DNA of 12,389 bases from NCBI GenBank assembly GCA_945863085.1, contig CAMBCD010000044.1, positions 1-12,389 on the forward strand, read 5' to 3'. Both the position numbers and the translations under genes were made by a program. The notes beneath the pieces are model-generated. The model was given only the letters and a program-made list of their open reading frames with translations. It had not been told where the DNA came from and ran no database searches. This document shows positions 1 through 12,389 of this stretch, piece by piece; within the stretch, counting starts at the first letter, position 1, and each line of letters begins with the position of its first letter. This DNA comes from Bordetella parapertussis. Its GTDB lineage: Bacteria; Pseudomonadota; Gammaproteobacteria; Burkholderiales; SG8-41.

Positions 1-127
1 CTCGATGTTCGGCTGGATGAACCGCTGGAACGACACGCTGGCCACACAACTTGAAGAGCATCCCCTGCACTTTGCCCGGGAACACCTCACGGCATCCGGA
101 TGGACGCCCGGTGTACATGCGAAATAA
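1..127 (+). CDS. AhpD/carboxymuconolactone decarboxylase-like protein, C-terminal end only
   Basis: Only the last 41 codons are in the window, read from base 2 to the TAA at 125-127. The visible tail (M-F-G-W-M-N-R-W-N-D-T ... G-W-x-x-G-x-H) matches the C-terminus of the AhpD-like selenoprotein at 1238-1852, with about 24 of 40 residues identical by eye. It is therefore a second member of the same alkylhydroperoxidase/carboxymuconolactone-decarboxylase family. The CxxC (or CxxU) active site lies upstream of the window, so I cannot say whether this copy uses cysteine or selenocysteine. The DUF302 gene starts 16 nt after its stop, which suggests co-transcription. Family assignment rests on similarity to the neighbour, not on a catalytic motif. 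Confidence 0.8.
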   Translation, partial: SMFGWMNRWNDTLATQLEEHPLHFAREHLTASGWTPGVHAK

Positions 128-132
128 CCAAC

Positions 133-138
133 AGGAGA
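133..138 (+). promoter_or_regulatory. Ribosome binding site of the DUF302 gene
   Basis: AGGAGA lies 5 nt before the ATG at 144. It decides the start: the longer frame from base 51 would overlap the upstream gene and has no such site, whereas the 144 start also opens directly into a signal peptide. Confidence 0.7.
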
Positions 139-143
139 CCGCG

Positions 144-593
144 ATGAATATTTTCCGGATGATGGTTGTGCTGATGCTGTCGGCGCTCGCTGCGACGAGC
201 CTGGCTGCGGACGGCCTGGTTGCCGTGAAGAGTCCCCACAGTGTCAAGGACACTCTGGATCGGCTGGAGGCTGCGGCCAAAGGCAAGGGGCTGAATGTGT
301 TCCTGCGGCTTGATCACGCTGCCGGCGCGCAAAAAATCGGCAAAACCCTGCGCCCCACGGAATTGCTGGTCTTCGGCAATCCCCAGGGGGGCACGCTGCT
401 GATGGAATGTGCGCAGACAGCCGGTATCGATCTGCCGCTGAAGGCGCTGGCCTGGCAGGATGCCGCGGGACAGGTCTGGCTGGGCTACAACGATCCGCGC
501 TTTCTTGCAAAACGTCATGATGCCGGCGATTGCGCCGTAGCTCCCAATCTGCTGAAAGCCCTCGCTGGCCTGGCGGCCGAAGCCGTACGCTGA
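144..593 (+). CDS. Secreted DUF302 family protein
   Basis: This 149-aa protein has an N-terminal signal peptide (roughly residues 1-23: a short start, hydrophobic V-V-L-M-L-S-A-L-A-A, then cleavage near S-L-A-A), so it should be exported to the periplasm. The rest fits the DUF302 domain: G-L-V-A-V-K-S near residue 26, a central L-L-V-F-G-N-P element, and the late W-L-G-Y-N-D-P segment. The biochemical role of DUF302 is not established. The start at 144 is chosen for the AGGAGA ribosome binding site and the signal peptide. It sits between an AhpD-like gene and a TetR regulator, and its TGA overlaps the regulator's ATG by one base (TGATG), so the two are translationally coupled. A role beside redox enzymes is inference from position only. 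Confidence 0.8.
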   Translation: MNIFRMMVVLMLSALAATSLAADGLVAVKSPHSVKDTLDRLEAAAKGKGLNVFLRLDHAAGAQKIGKTLRPTELLVFGNPQGGTLLMECAQTAGIDLPLKALAWQDAAGQVWLGYNDPRFLAKRHDAGDCAVAPNLLKALAGLAAEAVR

Positions 594-1177
594 TGGCGAG
601 GCCGCGTGAATTTGAACCCGGCGCCGCGCTGGAACGCGCGATGCAGGCTTTCTGGGCGAAAGGTTACAAGGCGACTTCGCTGGATGACCTCTGCACGGCG
701 ACCGGATTAAGCCGCTCCAGCCTCTACGCGGCGTTCGGTGGTAAACGCGCTTTGCTGCATCGCTCGCTGGCCCGCTACGAGGAGGAGGCTGTTACTCGCA
801 TTACCGCGGCGCTGGCAAAGCCGTTGCCGATACGCGAGGCCGTTGCCGGATTTGTCGGTGAATTGATCGACCGCATTGTTGCCGGGCCGGGGCGTGCGGG
901 TTGTTTTATCGGTAATTGCGCGGCCGAGCTCGCCGGGCAGGACCGCGTCACCGCGGCCCGTGTCCGGCAAAGCCTGGCACGCATAGAAGGAACATTTTCT
1001 GATGCGCTTGCCCGCGCGCAGGTGCGAGGCGAAATCAGGGCTGATGCGGACGTCGCATCGCTGGCCCGTTTCCTGGTGTCCGGAATCCAGGGCTTGCGGC
1101 TGGTCGGCAAGGCCAATCCGGATCGTGCGGCACTGTCCGACATTGCGGCAGTCATGCTGCGCTGTCTTGATCGCTGA
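593..1177 (+). CDS. TetR/AcrR family transcriptional regulator
   Basis: This 194-aa protein starts M-A-R-P-R-E-F, the usual opening of this TetR subgroup. A helix-turn-helix follows at about residues 28-50 (T-S-L-D-D-L-C-T-A-T-G-L-S-R-S-S-L-Y-A-A-F-G), matching the TetR_N domain. The C-terminal part (residues 60-194) would bind a ligand and form the dimer; it contains G-C-F-I-G-N-C and is not informative about the ligand. The ATG at 593 overlaps the stop of the DUF302 gene, and the frame upstream of it is just the shadow of that gene. The AhpD-like selenoprotein gene follows after 60 nt containing a tandem repeat. Local control of the selenoprotein genes is a reasonable inference: many TetR proteins repress adjacent genes and respond to a small toxic or oxidising compound. 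Confidence 0.9.
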   Translation: MARPREFEPGAALERAMQAFWAKGYKATSLDDLCTATGLSRSSLYAAFGGKRALLHRSLARYEEEAVTRITAALAKPLPIREAVAGFVGELIDRIVAGPGRAGCFIGNCAAELAGQDRVTAARVRQSLARIEGTFSDALARAQVRGEIRADADVASLARFLVSGIQGLRLVGKANPDRAALSDIAAVMLRCLDR

Positions 1178-1237: not shown

Positions 1238-1852
1238 ATGAACGGAACCGAAAAACCCGATCCGCGGCTGGCGCCGCTGCCGCAGGAAACCACACCCGAA
1301 CTCGCGGGTGCATTCCAGACCTACGTGAGGGTGCTCGGTTTCGTGCCCAACAGCGTGCTGATCATGCAGCGCAAACCGAAGCTGGTGCAGGCGCTGTCAC
1401 AACTGGCTGCGGCAGTATGGGATCCGGAAAGTGAAGTGCCGGTGGGTTTCAAGCGCATGCTGGCGCATGTGGCGAGCCGGGCGCACGGCTGCCATTACTG
1501 AATGGCGCACACGGCCGGGGCGGCGCTCGGGCTGGGTATTGATGAAAAAAAACTGGAAGCGGTATGGGAGTTTCGCAGCAACCCGCTTTTTACTGCTGCG
1601 GAGCGGGCAGCACTGGAAGTCGCCATTGCCGGCGCGGCACAACCCAATGCGGTTGACGAAGCCATGTTTGCCGAACTCAAGCGGCACTGGAACGAAGGGC
1701 AGATCGTGGAAATTGTCGCGGTCATCGCCATGTTCGGCTTCATGAACCGCTGGAACGACACCATGGCGACGCCGCTGGAAGAGGAGCCGATCCATGTCGG
1801 CGAGAAACATCTGGCAAAAAGCGGCTGGGACGTGGGCAAACACCGGCGCTGA
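1238..1852 (+). CDS. AhpD-like selenoprotein (CxxU), read through in-frame TGA at 1499-1501
   Basis: Read through one TGA, this is a 204-aa alkylhydroperoxidase/carboxymuconolactone-decarboxylase family protein. The active-site segment is A-S-R-A-H-G-C85-H-Y-Sec88-M-A-H91-T-A-G. Homologues have G-C-x-Y-C-x-A-H-T, so the TGA replaces exactly the second cysteine of the CxxC redox pair. Residues 1-84 (including F-V-P-N-S-V-L-I-M-Q-R-K-P) and 89-204 (ending N-R-W-N-D-T ... G-W-D-V-G-K-H) both belong to the family, and the latter resembles the tail of the gene at 1-127. AhpD-like enzymes reduce peroxides with an attacking thiol or selenol; CxxU members are known. The ribosome binding site AGAGGAG lies 7 nt before ATG 1238. 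A hairpin at 1509-1537 is the candidate SECIS. The peroxide substrate and electron donor are unknown. A sequencing error or pseudogene is possible but unlikely, given the precise position and the same arrangement in the next gene. Confidence 0.88.
1509..1537 (+). promoter_or_regulatory. Candidate SECIS hairpin for the AhpD-like selenoprotein
   Basis: The sequence just after the TGA (1499-1501) can fold as follows: AC/GT at 1509-1510 with 1536-1537, an A-G mismatch, CGGCC (1512-1516) with GGCTG (1530-1534, one G-U), a G-G mismatch, and GGG (1518-1520) with CTC (1526-1528, one G-U). This leaves the apical loop CGGCG (1521-1525). Counting the U of UGA as 1, the loop spans positions 23-27, close to the loop of the E. 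coli fdhF SECIS, and it has a G in the first two loop bases. The stem is imperfect, so the exact pairing is uncertain. Confidence 0.55.
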
Positions 1853-1885: not shown

Positions 1886-3106
1886 ATGGCACGAATGACG
1901 GATTTTTCGGACGCGGAGCAGCATCACCATCTCGACAAGATCAAGGATTTCCCGGATTTCGGCGAGACGCCGTTTGTTGCCGGGCCGGCACTGGCCCAGC
2001 GTCGCGTCGCAATCGTCACCACGGCCGGGCTGCACCTGCGCAGTGACCGCCCGTTTGACAGCGGAGCCGCCGATTACCGCGTGATCCCCGGCGATGCGCC
2101 GGCCGCGGACCTGATCATGAGCCATCTGTCGGTCAATTTTGACCGCACCGGTTTCCAGGAAGACATCAATGTCGTGTTTCCGCTGGACCGGCTGCGCGAA
2201 CTCGTGACGGAGGGTGTTATTGGTTCAGTGGCTGAAATCCACTATTCGTTCATGGGTGCCACGCAGATGCGTGCGCTTGAAGCGAAGGCGCGTGAGCTCG
2301 CGGGGTTACTGAAAAAAGACTGCGTCGACGCGGTGCTGCTGAGTCCCGTCTGACCGAACTGCACGTGCGCCGTGGGCGCACTGGGTCATTACCTGGAACG
2401 CGAAGGCATCCCGACTGCGCAGATTAGCCTGATCCGCGAACAGACTGCGGCGATCCGTCCGCCACGCGCATTGTGGGTGCCGTTCATGCTTGGCCGCCCG
2501 TTCGGTGCACCCGATGCGCCGGATTTCCAGCGCAGCGTATTGCGGGCGCTGCTGTCCTTGTTCGAGCGCGCCGCAGGTCCGGTGCTGGAGGATTTTCCCG
2601 AAGACGCACCTGCCGACAAGGGGCAGGAAGGCGGCTTTGCCTGTCCGGTGAGTTTTGCCGCGGAGCAGACGCAAAACGAAGGATTGGCCGGCGCTGTGCG
2701 CAATGAAGTCGCACAACTGTCGTCATGGTATGAGCTGGCGCTGCGCCGTCGAGGCCGTACTACGGTAGGTGTATTCGGAAAGTCAGTGGATGTGGCTGTC
2801 GGCCATGTGGTTTCATACCTCGATGGCCAACCCGAAGCTCCGCCATCGGGCATGACGGCGGGAACTGCGGTCAAACGTGCCTGCGACGACATCAAGGCGT
2901 ATTACTGTGAAGCGGCTGCCGCGCAACCGGGCAATCTTTCGTCACGGGCGATCGAACAATGGTTCTGGGGCGAGACCGCGGCGGCACGGGCGCTGCTGGT
3001 GATCCGCGACCTCTGTCTGGCCAGTGATGATGCATCGCTGAAACCCCTGGGCAAACTGAGCCTGATTCCGCGCGCCGTGAGTGCTGCCGGAGGCCGGAAA
3101 ACATAA
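1886..3106 (+). CDS. GrdB/PrdB-related selenoprotein (UxxC), read through in-frame TGA at 2351-2353
   Basis: Read through one TGA, this is a 406-aa member of the glycine/sarcosine/betaine/D-proline reductase selenoprotein B family. Residues 75-125 carry the family core (S-H-L-S-V-N-F-D-R-T-G-F-Q-x-D-x-N, then P-L-D-R-L-R-E-L and H-Y-S-F-M-G). The redox centre is D-A-V-L-L-S-P-V-Sec156-P-N-C159-T-C161, where GrdB/PrdB proteins also carry selenocysteine; the frame then continues G-A-L-G-H-Y-L-E-R-E-G-I-P-T. The C-terminal half (about residues 279-395: S-S-W-Y-E-L-A-L-R-R-R-G-R-T-T-V-G, then W-F-W-G-E-T-A-A) is an extension I recall from proteobacterial homologues, not from classical GrdB. True glycine reductase also needs GrdA and GrdC, which are absent here, so glycine reduction should not be assumed. 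The ribosome binding site AGGGAGA lies 7 nt upstream; the gene follows the AhpD-like selenoprotein after 33 nt. Substrate unknown. Confidence 0.88.
2365..2381 (+). promoter_or_regulatory. Candidate SECIS hairpin for the GrdB-related selenoprotein
   Basis: GTGCGCC (2365-2371) and GGCGCAC (2375-2381) form a perfect 7-bp stem with a GUG loop (2372-2374). Counting the U of UGA (2351) as 1, the loop G-U falls at 22-23; the SelB-contacting G-U of the E. coli fdhF SECIS is at 23-24. The stem begins 11 nt after the TGA. Stem, loop bases and distance all fit a bacterial SECIS. Confidence 0.78.
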
Positions 3107-9020: not shown

Positions 9021-9449
9021 TCAACTCACCGCAATCTCAGCCCGCAGACCCAGGACGGCAAGCGCGCGCTCCAAGGCAACCACCTTGGTCTGGTGGTGAG
9101 GATCGAGCATGCGCCGCGCTTCCTTCTCATGAACATGCATGCGCCGCGCCAGTTCGGATTTGGATACGCCCTGTTCGCGCATGGCGAGATAGACCGCGGC
9201 CTTCAGAGCGGTGGTTACGGGTGTTGAAACCATGCGTTCCCCGCTTTTCGCGCGGGACGGGGCCGGAATATCAAGGGCATCTTCGATGCGCGCCTCGATT
9301 GCTGCCTGCAGGGCGCCCTCGGCTTCGGTCAGGGCTTCTTCGACGTTGTTGCCCTGTGTGATGGCCTCGGGGATATCCCGGAAGTTCACGACATAGCCGC
9401 CGTCCTTGCGATCACGGGTGAGTTTTGCGGGGTAGGTGAATTGCAGCAT
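9021..9449 (-). CDS. hicB: HicB-family antitoxin with helix-turn-helix
   Basis: This 142-aa protein has the HicB partially degraded RNase-H-like fold at residues 1-60 (Y-P-A-K-L-T-R-D-x-x-D-G-G-Y-V-V-N-F-R-D-I-P-E-A-I-T-Q-G, then E-A-L-x-E-A-x-x-A-L) and a C-terminal helix-turn-helix at about 94-117 (V-S-K-S-E-L-A-R-R-M-H-V-H-E-K-E-A-R-R-M-L-D). It should bind and neutralise HicA and, with its HTH, repress its own promoter. Its ribosome binding site AGGAG overlaps the hicA stop (TAAGGAG on the minus strand) and the gap is 10 nt, so the two are co-translated. Order is toxin first, antitoxin second, usual for hicAB. Confidence 0.93.
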   Translation of the reverse strand: MLQFTYPAKLTRDRKDGGYVVNFRDIPEAITQGNNVEEALTEAEGALQAAIEARIEDALDIPAPSRAKSGERMVSTPVTTALKAAVYLAMREQGVSKSELARRMHVHEKEARRMLDPHHQTKVVALERALAVLGLRAEIAVS

Positions 9450-9459
9450 TGACGGCTCC

Positions 9460-9675
9460 TTAGCGAAGATCCTGATCGGTCAGCCCGATTTGTTTGAGCA
9501 TCGCGTGATACGTTCCGGTTTTCAGTTCGTCCTTCGGATTGCGAACGACTGTTCGCCGGTCTCCAAGGATCAGTACACCGTGAGAACCCTTGCCGCGGTC
9601 GGCACGCCATTCGCAGATCAGGCCGGCCGCTTTTGCGTACTTTTGAACCTTGCGAATGAACTCGTTACCCCGCAT
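9460..9675 (-). CDS. hicA: HicA-family mRNA interferase toxin
   Basis: This 71-aa protein has the HicA double-stranded-RNA-binding-like fold. The catalytic histidine is H32 in R-G-K-G-S-H, followed by R-R-T-V-V-R-N-P-K-D-E-L-K-T-G-T, matching the family's P-x-H-x-x-E-L-x-x-G-T with Asn-Pro-Lys in place of the second histidine region. HicA cleaves mRNA and halts growth when not held by HicB. Start ATG 9675 has GGAG (complement of 9683-9686) 7 nt upstream. Length is normal or slightly long for the family. The frame is intact, so the module is probably functional. It sits between housekeeping genes with a low-GC neighbour, consistent with acquisition by transfer. Confidence 0.92.
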   Translation of the reverse strand: MRGNEFIRKVQKYAKAAGLICEWRADRGKGSHGVLILGDRRTVVRNPKDELKTGTYHAMLKQIGLTDQDLR

Positions 9676-11183: not shown

Positions 11184-12389
11184 TTAGCTGAGCAGCGTCC
11201 ACGCCGCACCCAGCAGGGCACAGGCCCCGATCACCGGCATGATGCCGATCTTGTAACGCCACAGTGCGATAAACGCGCCGAGGCCGATCACCAGCGACGG
11301 CCAGTCGAAGTGGCCTTTGAGGCCTTCTGGCCACAACACGTGATAGGCAAAAAACACCGCGAGGTTGAGGATCACGCCGACCACGGCGGCGGTGATGCCG
11401 GTCAGGGGTGCGGTGAATTTGAGGTCACCGTGCGTGGTTTCGACCAGCGGGCCGCCGAGAAGAATAAAAATGAAACTGGGAAGAAAGGTGAAATAAGTAA
11501 CGACGGTGGCCGCCAGCGCGCCCGCGAGGAACAGGTTGTCCGCACCGAGAAATTGTGTGGTCCAGCCGCCGACAAAAGCGACAAAGGCGACCACCATGAT
11601 CAGCGGTCCGGGCGTGGTTTCGCCCAGCGCCAAGCCGTCAATCATCTGCAGCGGCGTGACCCATTGGTACTGTTCGACGGCGGCCTGATAGACATAAGGC
11701 AGTACGGCATAGGCGCCGCCGAAGGTCAGCAGCGCCGCCTTGGTGAAAAACCAGCCCATCTGGCTTAAGGGGCTCTGCCAGCCGTAGACCGTCACCAGCA
11801 GCGCCATCGCACCGCCCCACAGCAACAGGCCGATCGCGAGCACGATGGCGAATCGTTTCCAGGTGAACAGTGCATGTTGTGGTGTCGGGGTTTCGTCGTC
11901 GATTACCGCGGCACCGTAACTTTTGCCGTCAGTGCCGTGGCCGCCACCGGTGGCGAACAATTTCGGCGCCACCTGACCACCGATGTAACCGATGATGCCG
12001 GCGCCGATGACGATTAACGGGAACGGCAGCTTCAGTGCAAACAGTGCGACAAACGCCGCCGCGGCAATGGCCCACAACGCACTGTTTTTCAGCGCCCGTG
12101 AACCGATGCGCAGTGCGGCGACCACGACAATGGCGGTGACCGCGGGTTTGATGCCGTAGAGGATGCCGGCGATCGCCGGTACGTCTCCCCAGACCAGATA
12201 GATCCAGGTCAGTGCAACAAGGATGAACAGCGAGGGCAGTACGAACAGCCCGCCGGCGACAATACCGCCCCAGGTGCGGTGCATCAGCCAGCCGATGTAG
12301 GTAGCGAGCTGCTGCGACTCCGGGCCGGGCAGCAGCATGCAATAGTTCAGCGCGTGCAAAAAGCGCTGCTCAGAAATCCAACGCTTTTC
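11184..12389 (-). CDS. chrA: Chromate transporter ChrA, N-terminus beyond the window
   Basis: The frame is open to the window edge; the first residues seen are E-K-R-W-I-S-E-Q-R-F-L-H-A-L-N-Y-C-M-L-L-P-G-P-E, the usual CHR-family segment after the missing first helix. About 400 residues are visible, mostly hydrophobic helices. Two CHR halves are present: L-L-P-G-P-E-S-Q-Q-L-A-T-Y-I-G-W in the first, and F-T-K-A-A-L-L-T-F-G-G-A-Y-A-V-L-P-Y-V with L-G-E-T-T-P-G-P-L-I-M in the second. They are joined by a hydrophilic linker (G-G-G-H-G-T-D-G-K ... D-D-E-T-P-T-P). This is the long two-domain type, an inner-membrane protein exporting chromate; some homologues carry other oxyanions. The apparent TTG start at 12359 is an artefact of the edge. 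Confidence 0.93.
   Translation of the reverse strand, partial: EKRWISEQRFLHALNYCMLLPGPESQQLATYIGWLMHRTWGGIVAGGLFVLPSLFILVALTWIYLVWGDVPAIAGILYGIKPAVTAIVVVAALRIGSRALKNSALWAIAAAAFVALFALKLPFPLIVIGAGIIGYIGGQVAPKLFATGGGHGTDGKSYGAAVIDDETPTPQHALFTWKRFAIVLAIGLLLWGGAMALLVTVYGWQSPLSQMGWFFTKAALLTFGGAYAVLPYVYQAAVEQYQWVTPLQMIDGLALGETTPGPLIMVVAFVAFVGGWTTQFLGADNLFLAGALAATVVTYFTFLPSFIFILLGGPLVETTHGDLKFTAPLTGITAAVVGVILNLAVFFAYHVLWPEGLKGHFDWPSLVIGLGAFIALWRYKIGIMPVIGACALLGAAWTLLS

Follow-up and report, generated by a model that had tools for sequence, protein, structure and literature searches.

The window, by which we mean the whole stretch of 12,389 nucleotides that was analysed, carries two neighbouring genes on the plus strand that are each interrupted by an in-frame TGA. 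The features on which the analysis turns are as follows.

2 to 124, plus strand: a further AhpD-like paralogue, its tail cut by the window edge, recognised by its identity to a paralogue in locus L002.
51 to 593, plus strand: gene for a DUF302 protein (PF03625, 72 bits), a neighbour kept in close relatives.
530 to 1177, plus strand: gene for a TetR-family regulator (TetR_N, TetR_C_13), a possible regulator of the pair, at the same position in close relatives.
1238 to 1852, plus strand: AhpD-like (CMD family) gene of 204 amino acids with the TGA taken as Sec, from PF02627, TIGR01926 and Bmp8.
1499 to 1501, plus strand: in-frame TGA, the predicted Sec88 of a CHYU motif, from the codons of 28 AhpD-like sequences.
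1512 to 1534, plus strand: predicted SECIS-type hairpin of the AhpD-like gene, from 22 sequences compared with a synonymous null.
1886 to 3106, plus strand: PrdB/GrdB-related gene of 406 amino acids with the TGA taken as Sec, from PF07355, TIGR04483 and homologues.
2351 to 2353, plus strand: in-frame TGA, the predicted Sec156 of a UPNC motif, from TGA/Cys conservation in relatives.
2360 to 2362, plus strand: Cys159 codon, the predicted resolving residue of UxxC, invariant together with residue 156 in 72 rows.
2365 to 2381, plus strand: predicted SECIS hairpin of 7 bp whose loop, 2372 to 2374, is GTG, from a single-sequence fold and from 89 sequences compared with a synonymous-codon null.

Elsewhere the window, a stretch of bacterial chromosome, holds what we take to be dxs, ispA, folE and ribBA-like genes. 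At 9021-9675 a HicB-like antitoxin (PF15970, 37.4 bits) adjoins a 71-residue open reading frame (9460-9675, minus strand) that we presume to be HicA from its appearance, and a chromate transporter gene (PF02417, 195 bits) lies on the minus strand at 11184-12359. The DUF302 protein also matches positions 136-247 of the NCBIfam model NF002454 (fluoride efflux transporter CrcB) at 132.7 bits, the cut-off being 312; this part of the model presumably represents a DUF302 extension, and a link to fluoride is possible. Ten MAG records titled Bordetella parapertussis (L013, L015, L016 and seven others) carry PrdB-like loci, and this label looks doubtful for them, judging from isolate names alone.

A first-pass annotation had proposed that the TGA at 2351-2353 encodes selenocysteine within a single GrdB/PrdB-related protein, and our results bear this out. 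The codon lies in the same frame as the ATG at 1886 and the stop at 3104-3106, and translation through it yields a 406-residue product containing U156-P-N-C159-T-C, with the core motif noted ahead of it present as S-H-L-S-V-N-F-D-R-T-G at residues 79-89. The open reading frames called at the locus are those anticipated by that annotation, one of 155 amino acids (1886-2353) and a second of 244 amino acids that restarts at the GTG at 2372. Searched with profiles, the read-through product matches PF07355 at 38 bits (gathering cut-off 22) and so belongs to the GRDB superfamily, the match covering only the last fifth of the profile (274-345 of 347), and it matches the PrdB model TIGR04483 at 109.1 bits, below the equivalog cut-off of 300. 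Since the latter match covers residues 35-226, it spans the TGA; about 180 C-terminal residues lie beyond it. Of 2102 homologues found in the protein database, 120 were listed, and 119 of these are fragments of 238-259 residues that start past the TGA, including the window's own protein (P0002). Departures from the usual gene structure were observed among relatives: a tandem pair of PrdB-like genes with TGA at the Sec codon in both (L070:8001-10430), a match split between query residues 1-288 and 304-401 by a frameshift or assembly error (L014:6886-8059), and two 708-residue database proteins in which a Cys-type PrdB-like protein is fused to a TauD/TfdA dioxygenase domain (P0148, P0156).

A scan of genome contigs recovered at least 557 relatives, and in all of the best 80, which we took as loci, the codon at the Sec position is TGA; as the nearest relatives, these 80 under-sample the Cys forms. 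Over all loci collected, 94 distinct stretches comprise 91 with TGA, two with TGC and one with TGT. A protein search with residues 1-185 returned 105 matches of varied length, and in the resulting alignment of 106 rows, query counted, the Sec column holds Cys in 71 (query included), a gap in 26 and another residue in nine, these nine being mostly fragments or chimeric gene calls. Positions 156 and 159 are invariantly C in 72 aligned rows, 26 of which are Sec rows written as C. We also sampled 300 genomes from the order to which the genome of L001 belongs, where matches at E <= 1e-20 were obtained in 21 genomes. All 21 strong matches (E <= 4.8e-83), which occur in 18 genomes hereafter called carriers, contain exactly one stop, and it is a TGA, while five weaker matches contain one TGA in two cases and no stop in three. 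The codon is thus TGA where homologues carry Cys, and it is kept across species. To take it for a normal stop, an error of sequencing or a mark of gene decay is scarcely credible, and this was rejected: the RNA folds of the single sequences are weak, as this reading would have it, but the best 80 of at least 557 relatives and every strong match share the TGA, the downstream frame is open and conserved, and longer homologues carry Cys at the same position. Mapped on a tree of 72 family members with five outgroup proteins, the Sec rows require four changes, at least two of them forced by well-supported branches, and the Cys rows five, at least three of them so forced; Sec and Cys have therefore been exchanged for one another on more than one occasion.

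Directly 3′ of each TGA we found a predicted SECIS-type hairpin by multi-sequence tests, in which kinship was left uncorrected. The hairpin of the PrdB-like gene occupies nucleotides 15-31 counted from the TGA, and its GTG loop is the start codon chosen by gene callers. Folded from the window sequence alone it is weak (z -1.4 to -2.3). Across 89 sequences, with kinship uncorrected, the paired fraction averages 0.90, whereas 100 synonymous resamplings give 0.66 +/- 0.016 and at most 0.695; the mean energy is -11.4 against -6.2 +/- 0.28 kcal/mol in the synonymous null. The full set of seven pairs is present in 54 of the 89 sequences. Both sides have changed at two pairs, in one from C-G to A-U and in the other from G-C to A-U: pair 19-27 is G-C in 86 sequences, A-U in two and G-U in one, and pair 21-25 is C-G in 60, A-U in three, G-U in one, the remaining 25 leaving it unpaired. 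Among 28 distinct sequences of the AhpD-like gene, the 22 with TGA give an energy of -17.6 against -14.6 +/- 0.6 in the synonymous null (kinship uncorrected), and the fold of the window sequence alone is not significant (z -0.17 and -0.46). An Rfam search of the window returned no match.

Genes for Sec decoding were sought in 33 genomes that contain 35 of the 80 loci. SelB scored above cut-off in 30 of them (missing from G006, G015 and G023), as did tRNA-Sec (missing from G008, G015 and G024), each tRNA match reaching at least 68 bits against a cut-off of 47; one or the other is present in 32 of the 33 genomes and both in 28. A search for SelB in 55 further genomes found it in 11 of 12 carriers, the exception being G175, in one of three genomes with weak matches and in 10 of 40 non-carriers. 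In one relative, a distance of about 2 kb separates selB from the PrdB-like gene (G035:C5:70396-75519). From these genomes we infer that the species of the window probably has the Sec machinery as well. The first-pass annotation had staked its reading on two points, similarity across the TGA junction and the presence of Sec-decoding genes, and both turned out in its favour: the TIGR04483 match, the long Cys homologues and the invariant C156/C159 all run across the junction, and the decoding genes are present in relatives. We conclude that the TGA at 2351-2353 very likely encodes Sec, as residue 156 of a 406-residue PrdB/GrdB-related protein.

The gene directly upstream, which likewise contains an in-frame TGA, is an addition to what that annotation had reported. 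Its read-through product contains C85-H-Y-U88 and matches PF02627 at 40.7 bits (cut-off 23) over residues 47-129, across the TGA, which places it in the CMD family; taken separately, the two halves give no match and 14.6 bits. Against the peroxidase-related subfamily model TIGR01926 it scores 66.4 bits, short of the cut-off of 81.8. The codon at position 88 is TGA in 22 of 28 distinct AhpD-like sequences scoring above 150 bits, the remainder having TGC (four), TGT (one) and TCG (one), and the TGA at 1499-1501 is likely read as Sec. The truncated paralogue at 2-124 is 90% identical to the L002 paralogue, which has CRYC. CxxU selenoproteins of the AhpD-like type within the CMD family (PF02627) appear as TIGR01926 and COG2128 in the portions of two metagenome surveys available to us (PMC1088965, PMC2398784), and the window gene shares these traits but differs in directly adjoining a PrdB-like selenoprotein gene.

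The two genes also tend to occur in the same genomes. An AhpD-like match (E <= 1e-40) is present in 20 of the 300 genomes, namely in 13 of the 18 carriers and seven of the 282 others (Fisher p 3e-14, kinship uncorrected), with three genomes that have weak PrdB-type matches counted among the others. Leaving out three AhpD-like matches that lack the TGA or are broken gives a strict set of 12 of 18 against five of 282. Because both genes need Sec decoding, non-carriers that possess SelB make a fairer control, and against these the strict set stands at 12 of 18 to one of 10 (p 0.006, kinship uncorrected). Five of the 13 co-carriers have both genes side by side on one strand, in either order: the AhpD-like gene is upstream in G001, G005 and G121, where 24-42 bp separate the match ends; in G038 and G200 it lies downstream, with gaps of 58 and 86 bp. 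Among the 80 loci, many of which are short, seven have a strong AhpD-like neighbour no more than about 350 bp away (six with Sec and one, L024, with Cys), and in L004 and L014 an AhpD-like gene with a TGA lies on each side of the PrdB-like gene. An adjacent AhpD-like gene was not found at L006, L008, L009 and L010, which are 64-68% identical, nor in Zwartia hollandica LF4-65 (L046), a named strain which has the PrdB-like gene and whose genome contains SelB and tRNA-Sec. That the PrdB-like gene pairs with a second selenoprotein gene in the clade of the window is well supported.

Further neighbours recur at these loci. A TetR gene like that of the window is found in 11 of the 80, with an identity of at least 61% in nine of these, and it adjoins the PrdB-like gene in the absence of a strong AhpD-like gene at L012, L013 and L016; two database proteins (P0170, P0172) join TetR and the N-terminal half of a PrdB-like protein in a single frame. 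In L001, L002, L005 and L007 a DUF302 gene lies upstream and in the same orientation.

An AlphaFold2 model of the PrdB-like protein, with Cys replacing Sec, has a mean pLDDT of 94.1. With high confidence it places a strand at 149-153 and then residue 156 directly before a helix (157-172) that contains C159. A position at the start of a helix lowers the pKa of a thiol or selenol, as in thioredoxin-like proteins. The modelled geometry would thus set the two residues for attack and resolution, and Sec156 is likely the attacking and Cys159 the resolving residue.

Taken together, we consider it probable that both TGAs encode Sec and that the PrdB-like and AhpD-like proteins form a redox pair acting on a substrate that is likely not an amino acid. 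That the two proteins act together we infer from the observations above, and an amino acid is disfavoured as substrate because the pyruvoyl subunit of the amino-acid reductases is missing from most relatives, as detailed below. In the proposed mechanism, the Sec156 selenolate of the PrdB-like protein would attack an electrophilic substrate and Cys159 would free the product by forming an Se-S bond; the AhpD-like protein, through its CxxU motif, would then reduce this bond, or might itself take a peroxide or electrophile.

Bmp8, a debrominase, uses a deiodinase-like strategy. Among solved structures it is the closest relative of the AhpD-like product, at 111 bits over residues 8-184 (PDB 6ohi, 6ohj), with all other entries at 38.8 bits or less; its CMYC aligns with CHYU, so that Bmp8 has a Cys where the AhpD-like protein has a predicted Sec, the likeness being one of sequence alone. 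FarB, a relative of GrdB, has been proposed to act as a fluoroacetate reductase that breaks the C-F bond of fluoroacetate, and it is encoded with FarE, a GrdE-type protein that lacks the pyruvoyl-forming cysteines, according to the accessible part of PMC10838667. Together, the Bmp8 likeness and the FarB proposal suggest a reductive removal of electrophiles, and our guess, by analogy, is that the pair may serve this purpose. A narrower version, which we regard as distinctly unlikely, is that it constitutes a two-selenoprotein module for reductive dehalogenation, a form of electrophile removal, under a TetR regulator in Betaproteobacteria: the pyruvoyl-free PrdB-like protein would attack a carbon-halogen bond through Sec156, in the manner proposed for FarB on fluoroacetate, with a Bmp8-like debrominase in Sec form working alongside.

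One may postulate instead that both proteins merely detoxify peroxides, in line with the usual naming of AhpD family members. The matches of the AhpD-like protein to TIGR01926 and PF02627 are consistent with this, and Sec is common in thiol peroxidases; however, the closest solved relative of this protein is a debrominase, with other structures far behind in score, and the PrdB/GrdB family is not known to act as a peroxidase. We consider this explanation rather unlikely.

Another scenario places the PrdB-like protein in an organoarsenical pathway, where it would reduce an arsenic intermediate beside the radical-SAM enzyme ArsS. ArsS lies in the flanks of nine of the 80 loci, where a density of one copy per 4 Mb would predict about 0.23: L001, L002, L005, L007 and L014, all of the window's clade, and L024, L049 (tail only), L040 and L073. 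Profile matches to the ArsS model TIGR04167 confirmed it in L001, L005, L040 and L073. In L040 the gene order is PrdB-like, MerA-like reductase, VTT, TIGR04169 peroxidase-like and ArsS, and L073 follows a like order with one extra gene between. Of the 18 carriers, 17 also have ArsS, as do 76 of the 282 other genomes (p 1e-8, kinship uncorrected), but the excess is modest when SelB-positive non-carriers serve as the control (17 of 18 against five of 10, p 0.013); the class of G023 gives five of five against 141 of 239 (p 0.08). Moreover, five of the nine ArsS loci represent one clade, and in most carriers ArsS lies elsewhere in the genome. An arsenite methyltransferase scored above either cut-off in just five of 26 carrier genomes and one of 13 controls, with weaker matches in the carriers G007 and G032, the latter containing a TGA. 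Because few carriers have the methyltransferase, an arsenic role is possible and not favoured; frequent as ArsS is as a neighbour, we hold the arsenosugar pathway to be weakened by this finding, and the scenario to be unlikely. As a separate observation, many TIGR04167 matches in the class of G023 hold one in-frame TGA, which fits the "(seleno)protein" of the model name.

It is very improbable that the PrdB-like protein belongs as a subunit to an amino-acid reductase of the D-proline or glycine type, where a pyruvoyl partner activates the C-N bond of the carbon that Sec attacks. In glycine and D-proline reductases, it is the amino group that the pyruvoyl subunit activates. PrdB and GrdB are both taken to need it, according to the accessible part of PMC10838667. 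What speaks for this assignment is that PrdB is the best curated match, that PF07355 scores above its cut-off and that the UxxC motif is as in PrdB and GrdB; metagenome surveys, in the portions at hand, use the PrdB name for such genes, classing pfam07355 UxxC genes as PrdB or proline reductase (PMC1088965, PMC2398784), the GOS survey (PMC2398784) counting 235 selenoproteins and 110 Cys homologues as "Proline reductase PrdB". With PrdB the protein thus shares UxxC, the domain match and the existence of Sec and Cys forms, but its 109 bits fall far below the cut-off and the C-terminal residues outside the match set it apart. With GrdB and FarB it shares the Pfam family and a predicted selenolate nucleophile, which for FarB is likewise a proposal, made in the same portion of PMC10838667.

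GrdB acts with GrdE and GrdA, whereas these partners are missing from most relatives here. The pyruvoyl subunit family PrdA/GrdE (PF09338) was not found in 30 of the 33 relatives' genomes, nor was GrdA (PF04723), and neither occurs in the eight genomes that stand nearest to the window (G001-G007 and G012). It is on account of these partners missing from 30 of the 33 genomes of relatives that we rejected the amino-acid reductase reading, and they likewise favour the earlier suggestion of a substrate other than glycine. Both families are present in G014, G024 and G031, as neighbouring genes in the last two, so that in these three genomes a true glycine reductase likely exists beside the PrdB-like protein.

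The low PrdB score and the missing partners indicate that the family should not be named proline reductase. The surveys, in the portions available to us, count PrdB-type UxxC selenoproteins under that name, and the genomes with the gene that were examined here mostly lack the subunit that such a reductase needs; a large family of 2102 proteins is therefore likely misnamed. The family is also mis-annotated, in that all but one of the 120 listed proteins begin after the TGA. The pairing with a Bmp8-like AhpD selenoprotein provides a testable lead to the chemistry of the PrdB-like proteins.
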